This document shows positions 13,387-64,000 of a stretch of DNA of 64,000 nucleotides, piece after piece. The DNA is taken from contig OZ025887.1 in the NCBI GenBank assembly GCA_964019415.1, positions 1,468,306 to 1,532,305 of the forward strand, read 5' to 3'. A program made the translations under genes and the position numbers. Numbering within the stretch: position 1 is the stretch's first letter; every line of letters starts with the position of its first letter. Origin of the DNA: Ianthella basta. Its lineage: Eukaryota; Porifera; Demospongiae; Verongiida; Ianthellidae. The notes beneath the pieces are model-generated. The model saw only the letters and a program-made list of their open reading frames with translations. It had not been told where the DNA came from and did no database searches.

Positions 13387-14590
13387 CTATACTGTAGCTA
13401 TGAGAACAAAATTTGAAATAGTTTTGTGGTGGGCCTGCTTGCCAGTGCAAGTTGAGCATGATGAGTGTGCAAAGCAGTGGATAGTGCAAGGCAAGAAATG
13501 GTTTGAAATAGTTCCATGACAATGAATCAATCACGTTATATAAGCTACACAAATGAGGGTGTTAAGACAGATAGAGGAGGTGTCAAGACTAGATAGAATA
13601 AGAAATGTGGATATTGGGGTAGATTGAGGCAGAGAAGTGTTGGACTTTGTTAGGAGACAGCAGCAGATTTGGAAGCAAAGGTTAGAGGAGATGAATACCT
13701 AAATCGTAGACATTTTTGTGGAGCAAAAATTATGTGAGTCAATTTTGTGCGGCATAAATTTCGTGGCCTGGGCTACCCGCGAAATTTAAACCCCACGAAA
13801 AGTAACTGTGTACATTGTTAAACCCAGCAGAATACACTGTACCACATTTTGCCAAGTGAAGATCTTGAGCTATGCCTTAAATATTCTAAAAATTCAAAAC
13901 TCTAATTTTCGCAAACTTTCCACAGTTTTGCCTTAAAACATTCCAAAATTTTGTATCCTTGGGAGACTCTAAAATTGGAATAGACCTCTAATTTTGGCAA
14001 TGGTTACTGGGGTACTGCATGATATACCTTATGATATGATAAACATACCTAATGAAGCAGTGTTGCCTGTGGAGATATCCAATGCCGGTTCAGGTTAAGT
14101 ACTGGCTAGTCGATATGAGTATTGCAGTTGGCAGCTATGGCTTTCCTATCCTTGAAGTTCATTTCCTCGGTGACCCATAAAAAATCTTCTCCTTTTAGAC
14201 ATGATTCCTGTGAATATCACACCACACGGTGACAAGGGAAGTGCCAGTGGCAGCCATTTTACTCACGGAACCTTCCAGAAAATGGTAGCTGAGAGCTTTG
14301 CAAGAGTCTTTAATTTTTGCAAGACACAAATGAAAGTGAACATATTTTCTCCTAAACTTCAATAAGCAAAAATCGAAAACTCTCAAAATTCACGAATTTT
14401 TAAATTATTTATTGTAGGCGTAAAGTGATTTACACAGTACATTTACAAACAAACATATTATTGTAGGAGTATGTACGTATGTAATAGTTAAATGCCGACG
14501 AAGTGGTCTCAATTTTCAGAGACACTGATTGGTCAACATTTAACTATTATAGATCCCGAATGATAATCAAAGCATGAATCAAGTTGCTTC
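13387..14590. other. No gene recognised; AT-rich
   Basis: Contains a small palindrome near 13760-13800 (AAATTTCGTGG facing CCCGCGAAATTT) of MITE-like composition. No coding signal was found. Confidence 0.5.
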
Positions 14591-14595
14591 ATGTC

Positions 14596-15008
14596 TTGAT
14601 AGAGATTAATCACTGGGAATATTACACCAACCAGCCTCCTACACCAATGGTGTCTCAGGAGGCTGGGGGGCATCACGCCCTATTAATGGCAACCAGTGAT
14701 CACAGCCTTCCCCCGCTAGTCATCCTACAAAGATGGTAGAGCCACAGACAGCTGTTTCGCCCTAGTTGGGGCTCATCAGTGTGGCGTACTGATGGATGGT
14801 AAGATGACTAGCTACTCTTGTGTCCACCACTAGTGAAACACTTGTGGTTTCGACAAGAGCGAATACTAATGGGGGAAGGCTGCAAGTCATTTACAAAAGC
14901 GTGACTTGGCGCAAGGTTGTTAAGAGGACAGTTTGTAGCAGTTGGTCCACTGCTGAGGTTTGGTTGATAGAGATTAATCACTGGGAATATTACACCAACC
15001 AGCCTCCT
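14596..15008. repeat. 45-bp direct repeats bounding a 368-bp ribozyme-containing unit
   Basis: The 45-mer starting TTGATAGAGATTAATCACTG occurs at 14596-14640 and again at 14964-15008 (offset 368), both followed by AGCCTCCT-type sequence. Between them lie the hammerhead ribozyme (14715-14812) and another strong hairpin (14815-14861, stems CTCTTGT/ACAAGAG). Direct repeats around a hammerhead motif are what one sees in retrozymes and in the pseudo-LTRs of Penelope-like elements. Confidence 0.75.
14715..14812 (-). ncRNA. Hammerhead self-cleaving ribozyme, type I, minimal stem III
   Basis: All core residues are present on the minus strand. CUGAUGA (14779-14773) is followed by stem II GCCC/GGGC (14772-14769 with 14762-14759; 6-nt loop), GAAA (14758-14755), a tiny palindromic stem III CAG/CUG (14754-14749) and the cleavage triplet GUC (14749-14747). 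Stem I is GCCACA (14785-14780) paired with UGUGGC (14746-14741), extended after an internal loop by a perfect 10-bp helix (14812-14803 with 14724-14715). Cleavage is expected after C14747. A stem III with no loop favours dimeric folding, a property known from hammerheads of animal retroelements and satellite DNAs. Function is inferred from secondary structure. Confidence 0.88.
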
Positions 15009-15502
15009 GCATGCTTCATGTCTTCTAGACGACGTCTGTGTCCTTGGTAATGAGTTTAGCCTTGAAGATGGCAAATAAAGCCGACAGTCAAGTCACTGCT
15101 CTGAAGAGCTCCCAGAGCCACTTCAAATCTATGCACATGTTATTGAAATGGGGATTATTTAGCCACATACTGCCACAAGTGCTAGTGAGCAGCAATAAGT
15201 GAGAAATAGCACTCCTGCCAAGACAGGAATTGCAGTGTAGAGTCAAAGAGCAAATTGTGGAATAGGGGCCAACAAAGTGCCTGCCAATACAAGGTGAAAC
15301 GAAAAATGTGTCATACTAGGACAAAACCAATGAGTATGGAGCAAACCAACTGCAAACGCCATGTGGATGTAAATATAAAATTGTTAGGTTTTGACTATGA
15401 TGGGAGCAATTGAGGCCAGTTTTTGACAAGGGGTATGCAGGTAGCTCTAGTAAGCTGAGCTTTGAGGACAGCATGACCATCACCAGACAGTGCAAGCTAT
15501 GC

Positions 15503-15841
15503 GCCAGTGTTTGTAGGAAAAAGACCACCAGTGCAAGTTGTATGTGTAACCACCATGCATGGGTGCAAGTAGAGTGTTTGCGCTGGTTGATGGAGCGAAA
15601 GAACCCCACCAGTGCAAGTTGCTAAAGTTCAGGGGACTGCATGGGCACCATGATTGATTGGCACAAGTTTGAGCGGGATGCAACAACAATGCAACTTGCA
15701 CATGGGCATGGGTGCTGTTGCTGCATCTGCGCACTGGTGATTTCTTTCATTCCAGCAACTAGCGCAAACACTTTACTTGGACTCATGGTGGCTACCCATT
15801 GCAACTCGTACTAGTGGTCTTTCTCCTGGAAGCACTGGGCC
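15503..15841. repeat. Inverted repeat with ~100-bp arms
   Basis: 15503-15603 and 15747-15841 are complementary over about 95-100 bp with roughly 15% mismatch; shared landmarks are CCACCAGTGCAAGTTG, CACCATGC and AGCGCAAACACT. The ~140-bp centre repeats the TGCAACTTGCAC motif. It is a foldback-type element or an inverted duplication. Confidence 0.75.
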
Positions 15842-15879
15842 AGGTGCATTTGCTCATGGACATTCTGCAACTTGCACTG

Positions 15880-15903
15880 TGTGGTGGTGGTGGTGGTGGT
15901 GGT
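15880..15903. repeat. (TGG)n microsatellite
   Basis: About eight TGG units in tandem. Confidence 0.9.

Positions 15904-22557: not shown

Positions 22558-64000
<41,443 letters not shown>

Follow-up and report, generated by a model that had tools for sequence, protein, structure and literature searches.

The genome of the sponge Ianthella basta contains a family of short, hammerhead-bearing repeats, which we consider with good probability to be non-autonomous retrozymes whose self-cleaved RNA circles are copied by the machinery of Penelope-like elements (PLEs) from both ends of a staggered break in the target DNA. PLE machinery is favoured because the retrozyme and the PLEs of the same genome have the same anatomy, with head-to-head arms, paired ends and target duplications. 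The family is a new one of a known kind, the animal retrozymes, and its addition to that kind is the insertion signature.

The hammerhead ribozyme and its insertion

The window, i.e. the whole 64-kb stretch of DNA that was analysed, contains a sole Rfam match above the gathering score, a type I hammerhead ribozyme (RF00163) on the minus strand at 14741-14785. The match reached 42.5 bits in the Rfam covariance search (gathering score 34, E 1.7e-7) and covers model positions 1-45 of 45. A preliminary description of this DNA had read a hammerhead from the bases and had named such a search as its check, which the ribozyme has now passed. Reading of the bases on the minus strand located the hammerhead core (CUGAUGA at 14773-14779, GAAA at 14755-14758, U at 14748 and C at 14747), stem II (14769-14772 with 14759-14762) and the proximal stem I (14780-14785 with 14741-14746). 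With the 10-bp distal stem I (14715-14724 with 14803-14812), which belongs to an inverted repeat (I16) of 93% complementarity over 14 nt, the ribozyme extends over 14715-14812. Thus, the core bases, stem II and both parts of stem I are all found as had been claimed. The invariant core and the three helices of RF00163 are all there, both loop 2 and the internal loop of stem I exist, and the cut is expected between 14747 and 14746, in agreement with the position proposed before. Stem III is indeed the bare palindrome CAGCUG (14749-14754, minus strand) that had been pointed out, but this feature is not special, as the Rfam consensus has the same four-pair, loop-less palindrome. The hammerheads of the newt and axolotl satellites, whose repeats are near 330-350 nt long, likewise have a very short palindromic stem III (PMC7229834), and dimeric hammerheads with a weak stem III have been described for newt, axolotl and PLEs (PMC7229834, PMC7761336). 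From this literature and from its own weak stem III, it is a fair guess that the hammerhead of the window works as a dimer. Since the window copy has a single ribozyme, it can on its own neither form a dimer in cis nor release unit-length RNA.

The ribozyme is part of an insertion of 416 bp (14596-15011), which comprises 1.13 copies of a 368-nt unit. We numbered the unit on the minus strand so that u1 (14746) is the base that follows the expected cut. One full unit occupies 14596-14963 (minus strand; u151 = 14596, u152 = 14963 and u368 = 14747), and a partial second copy of 48 nt (u104-u151; 14964-15011, minus strand) follows as repeat D1 at a spacing of 368, with 98% identity to the other copy. 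Comparison of the flanks revealed a 13-bp target duplication, TGCTTCATGTCTT, at 14585-14597 on the left, where the last two bases are common to the element, and at 15012-15024 on the right. The repeat unit, the partial second copy and the target duplication go beyond the preliminary description. Its suggestion of a hammerhead of the retrozyme kind is backed by the RF00163 match, by the repeat unit and by the 498 copies in the genome described below. According to arm mapping, the window copy has one arm only, and its 3' end at 14598 (minus strand; u149 here) belongs to an end class termed S, which is the proposed start of reverse transcription. The position of a second end class, L (about u194; 14921, minus strand), is internal in the window copy and is an outer end elsewhere. 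Between S and L, the minus strand contains the hairpin AGCAGU-GGACCA-ACUGCU (14937-14954).

The window holds further repeats. Nested inverted repeats at 15469-15898, with arms of 28-46 nt that are 81-85% complementary, are likely to be a foldback element adjoining the retrozyme. At 30906-31598, a 21-bp unit is repeated 33 times, the copies being 98% alike and lying within open frames of both strands. A 399-aa frame at 45477-46676 has many relatives, some of them with a reverse-transcriptase domain, and is probably another retroelement. A Pfam search of seven ORFs of the window gave no match.

The retrozyme family and the anatomy of its insertions

By searching the genome (209 Mb, 96 contigs) with a 33-base ribozyme pattern and up to two mismatches, 498 copies (251 + 247) were found, while the reversed pattern used as a control gave none. 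The genome contains at least two subfamilies of the retrozyme: A, to which the window copy belongs (368-nt unit), and B (374 nt), which shares about 70-79% identity with A over the aligned parts of three sites (L004, L010 and L011). The element search yielded at least 96 matches, corresponding to at least 40 sites of subfamily A. All 40 were retrieved, and 38 of them are independent, two sites (L059 and L075) having been dropped for flanks identical to those of L058 and L074. Subfamily B was recognised through the ribozyme pattern search and is represented by six two-arm sites (L098-L101, L011 and L004) and by a seventh, B-like site with one arm (L010). In the tandem unit, the longest run free of stop codons has 99 codons, and the retrozyme encodes neither a reverse transcriptase nor a GIY-YIG endonuclease. 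Lacking a long reading frame, it is therefore not itself a PLE.

Like the metazoan non-LTR retrozymes, the family combines a type I hammerhead and a noncoding unit (368 and 374 nt, within the published 170-400 nt) with single to several tandem copies, target duplications of more than 4 bp, a self-paired predicted circle and the presence of PLEs in the same genome (PMC7229834). The GC contents of 49.5% and 47.9% are below 50% but not below 45%, both of which are given as limits in the available text of that study. Plant LTR retrozymes are also noncoding elements using a ribozyme and RNA circles (presumed in our case), but differ by their type III hammerhead, their LTRs and their 4-bp duplications (PMC7229834). 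The predicted folds of A and B are similar, each being a self-paired circle in which ribozyme stems I and II are formed and an additional CUG-CAG pairing is present in the core. In the alignment of 21 rows, 12 of the 76 consensus pairs are changed on both sides, mostly as a contrast of A with B and hence in few independent events.

Some copies lie in a particular genomic context. Three sites on one contig (L006, L007 and L015) carry related retrozyme copies beside similar exons, of which those of L006 and L007 encode an Ig domain and that of L015 resembles them by eye. Because of the adjoining similar exons, these copies were probably spread by gene duplication. The Ig domain, like matches of the genome to the IP3/ryanodine-receptor family (PF01365), is consistent with an animal. 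Five other insertions (L082, L084, L011, L098 and L100) are situated in arrays where ATCTTGCC-like repeats abound, which may reflect a target preference or simply an easy target.

The arms of the insertions, mapped onto the circular unit, range from a few tens of bases (about ten in cases read by hand) to 3.3 units, and 33 of 56 A arms are longer than one unit. Two arms are present at 25 of the 38 independent A sites, and in all 25 they are arranged head-to-head, with the antisense arm on the left and the sense arm on the right. The same arrangement is seen among the 100 ribozyme places listed, where opposite-strand neighbours within 1.2 kb were head-to-head in 14 cases and tail-to-tail in none. 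Exact flanking repeats of at least 10 bp occur at 26 of 40 A sites (11-15 bp at 25 of 40), compared with 7 of 1560 mismatched flank pairs, a control that includes both duplicate sites. At two of the 40 sites the target repeat has just 6 bp, and at nine no repeat of at least 6 bp was detected, two of which (L062 and L077) were later recovered; L082 and L084 are situated in repetitive flanks.

After trimming of the target repeats, the outer ends fall into the two classes S (u139-157, around u147) and L (u185-206, around u192), which are about 45 nt apart. The classes were defined post hoc on the A data, and subfamily B and the PLEs served as independent checks. Second arms were added by hand at four sites (L062, L068, L070 and L077); at L070 the added arm matches at 10 of 12 bases and the target repeat has only 6 bp. 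The two windows make up 11% of the unit, yet they contain 58 of 63 A ends. At the two-arm A sites, S is paired with L in 20 of 25 cases, and neither S/S nor L/L was found; the other five (L078, L080, L081, L085 and L086) have one end outside both classes. The one-arm A sites, including the window copy, all end at S (seven) or L (six). In subfamily B, all six two-arm sites are of the S/L type, with ends at b149-156 and b199-206. Thus, in A and B together, every one of the 26 sites having both ends in a class is mixed, out of 31 two-arm sites overall.

These insertions could in principle be a satellite repeat that is spread by DNA recombination and carries a relic ribozyme along, as the units stand in tandem and have no long reading frame. 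The dispersed insertions with target repeats, the recurrent ends and the conserved ribozyme make this explanation hardly credible. A further alternative is that the inverted arm arises through snap-back of a single cDNA that primes itself, or from an antisense template, rather than by priming at both ends of the target. Self-priming has been suggested for rotifer PLEs on account of junction palindromes (PMC3846280), and it would fit the near-symmetric junctions at L074 and L081 as well as the five or more shared bases at 7 of 27 arm junctions, compared with 0.7% by simulation. However, microhomology fits the joining of two cDNA ends equally well, and self-priming predicts one defined outer end, whereas both ends are defined, and of different class, at 26 of 31 two-arm sites. 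We therefore regard self-priming as improbable and favour priming at both ends of the target.

The RNA template of the arms

In the counts of variants and of crossings of the cleavage site, arms shorter than 120 nt were left out. The cleavage site is crossed unbroken by 50 of 56 A arms and by all 13 B arms, and none of the 69 arms ends within 3 nt of it. Since the arms run across the cut site and do not stop there, the template was not a cut linear monomer. Some insertions carry changes that are unique to their site and present in every copy of the unit: two changes in all four copies at L057, one insertion in all four copies and both arms at L060, and one change in every copy at L073. Overall, site-only variants at positions covered at least twice are present in every copy in four cases and in some copies in 132, and at positions covered by both arms they are found in both arms in three cases and in one arm in 90. 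Later mutation would explain most of the unshared site-only variants. There is thus modest support for both arms of an insertion having been copied from one template. In a wider count of variants, 54 were shared and 136 were not within sites, versus 706 and 12159 between sites. We had read this within-site excess as many private variants common to both arms, but it is carried largely by subfamily markers, and the recount restricted to site-only variants failed to back that reading.

Instead of a circle, the template could also be a multimer that was transcribed from a tandem copy and left uncleaved, the ribozyme then having no role in transposition. Multimers would equally give long arms across the cleavage site, and the ribozyme was dispensable for the insertion of a PLE in vitro (PMC11167929). 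Against this stands the conservation of the ribozyme: in the A arms, its 40 positions (u335-368 and u1-6) vary in 0.5% of cells (13/2587), compared with 2.3% elsewhere (489/21528), which amounts to a roughly fourfold lower variability of its bases. The site-only changes in all four copies at L057 also speak for a circle, although an earlier tandem copy that was itself derived from a circle would match them too. Altogether, we judge the multimeric transcript to be rather unlikely and prefer the circle as template. Within the unit, the stretch from S to L (u150-194) has a variability of 4.4%, compared with 1.7% at u7-140 and 1.8% at u201-330, to which alignment ends may contribute.

Penelope-like elements and the proposed insertion mechanism

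The PLEs of the genome were found through a GIY-YIG-like frame near another hammerhead (L018), a frame that has no Pfam match on its own. The genome contains 150 PLE matches, and among the 149 of them that were typed, opposite neighbours within 5 kb are head-to-head in 18 of 18 cases. Three longer PLE frames matched the Pfam domains RVT_1 (above the cut-off in one of the three) and GIY-YIG (above it in two). Five two-arm PLE insertions were read, and four of them (L095, L096, L097 and L103) consist of a short and a long arm placed head-to-head, with ends 32-35 nt apart and target repeats of 9, 12, 15 and 14 bp, respectively. In the fifth (L102), the left arm is truncated and a clear target repeat is lacking. 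Of the partly seen copies, L090, L092 and L094 include the tail, while L091 and L093 stop before it; L089 has a 79-nt inverted arm without S/L ends.

This anatomy agrees with published PLE insertions, which are head-to-head with one arm tailed and have duplications of 8-10 bp (PMC3846280). In vitro, the anole PLE has two start sites and cuts and extends both DNA strands (PMC11167929). Indeed, the retrozyme resembles Penelope/Poseidon-type PLEs in its head-to-head arms, the extra tail on one of two arms, the target duplications, the hammerhead motif and the two start sites (PMC3846280, PMC11167929). It differs from PLEs by having no coding region, by an S-L spacing of about 45 nt rather than the 31-35 nt of the PLE ends, and by the failure to find a PLE tail that matches it. 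In local BLAST searches, the only match of the unit in L089-L094 was to the other hammerhead of L089, and in L095-L097 there was only an 11-base match (E 2.9), with none at the ends. Comparison by eye of the tails of L102 and L103 with the S-L stretch revealed no resemblance.

The 3' ends of eight PLE copies (L090, L092, L094, L095, L096, L097, L102 and L103), representing three PLE groups, are predicted to form a likely H-type pseudoknot of 13 pairs across both end positions. In this model, 94.4% of cells are paired, compared with 14-43% when the pattern is slid, the rows comprising only seven distinct ones. The covariation score exceeds those of all 500 shuffles; three pairs of stem 1 are changed on both sides, a number that shuffles reach in 152 of 500 cases. 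Inspection by eye recognised no such pseudoknot in the retrozyme. One PLE copy contains a palindrome of about 104 bp within a hammerhead-like region (L092:2047-2151). Six further loci (L008, L012, L014, L016, L017 and L018, near position 1500) carry hammerheads with a longer stem III, and L016-L018 adjoin coding stretches that resemble one another on visual comparison. The idea that these six are PLE ribozymes was dropped, as they seem to be part of other repeats.

The retrozyme might instead be mobilised by a LINE-type element, the head-to-head arms being the outcome of ordinary twin priming; twin priming of L1 elements also produces 5' inversions. However, both outer ends lie at two recurrent internal positions of the unit, one each, no poly-A tract was present at the outer ends inspected, and the PLEs of the same genome share the pattern, in a comparison confined to PLEs. 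Mobilisation by a LINE is thus very unlikely, although LINEs or PLEs are named as candidates in print (PMC7229834) and one or the other is still named in a review of 2024 (PMC11722881). In line with PLE machinery, PLEs have been considered a strong candidate for the mobilisation of retrozymes (Cervera and de la Pena 2020, PMC7229834).

We infer expression, cleavage, circle formation and the use of a PLE protein in the following way. Transcripts from copies with at least two ribozymes would be self-cleaved to unit-length RNAs, from which circles would be formed by a host ligase. A PLE protein, with its reverse transcriptase and GIY-YIG endonuclease, would then make a staggered break in the target, and both 3' DNA ends would prime cDNA synthesis on the circle, with S as the start for one end and L, at a distance of about 45 nt, as that for the other. 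Either cDNA may round the circle more than once, and the two cDNA ends would finally be joined head-to-head, at times via microhomology. The window copy would be an insertion that ended with one arm only, from S. Tentatively, and with less confidence than in PLE machinery as such, we suggest that one RNA circle carries both S and L, each being used by one DNA end, and that two PLE subunits may copy this circle simultaneously. The strict S/L pairing would need to be reconciled with the in vitro data for the anole PLE, which in the available text of the report indicate no apparent difference in start sites between the top and the bottom strand (PMC11167929).

The available part of the description of metazoan retrozymes includes neither head-to-head arms nor two paired end positions, unlike the present family (PMC7229834). 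No description of a paired S/L end pattern for retrozymes was found in the literature searched, which mostly did not extend to subscription journals. According to the accessible sections of a 2020 review, metazoan retrozymes have no motif revealing which autonomous element moves them (PMC7761336). The paired ends render PLEs as the answer directly testable with purified PLE protein, and the S/L rule is a precise prediction for both DNA strands. If it is true that two primers are extended on one circle during an insertion, this event has left its trace in the strict S/L pairing. Such a mode of insertion would decide the question of the machinery behind animal retrozymes and would also provide a mechanism for the tail of PLEs.
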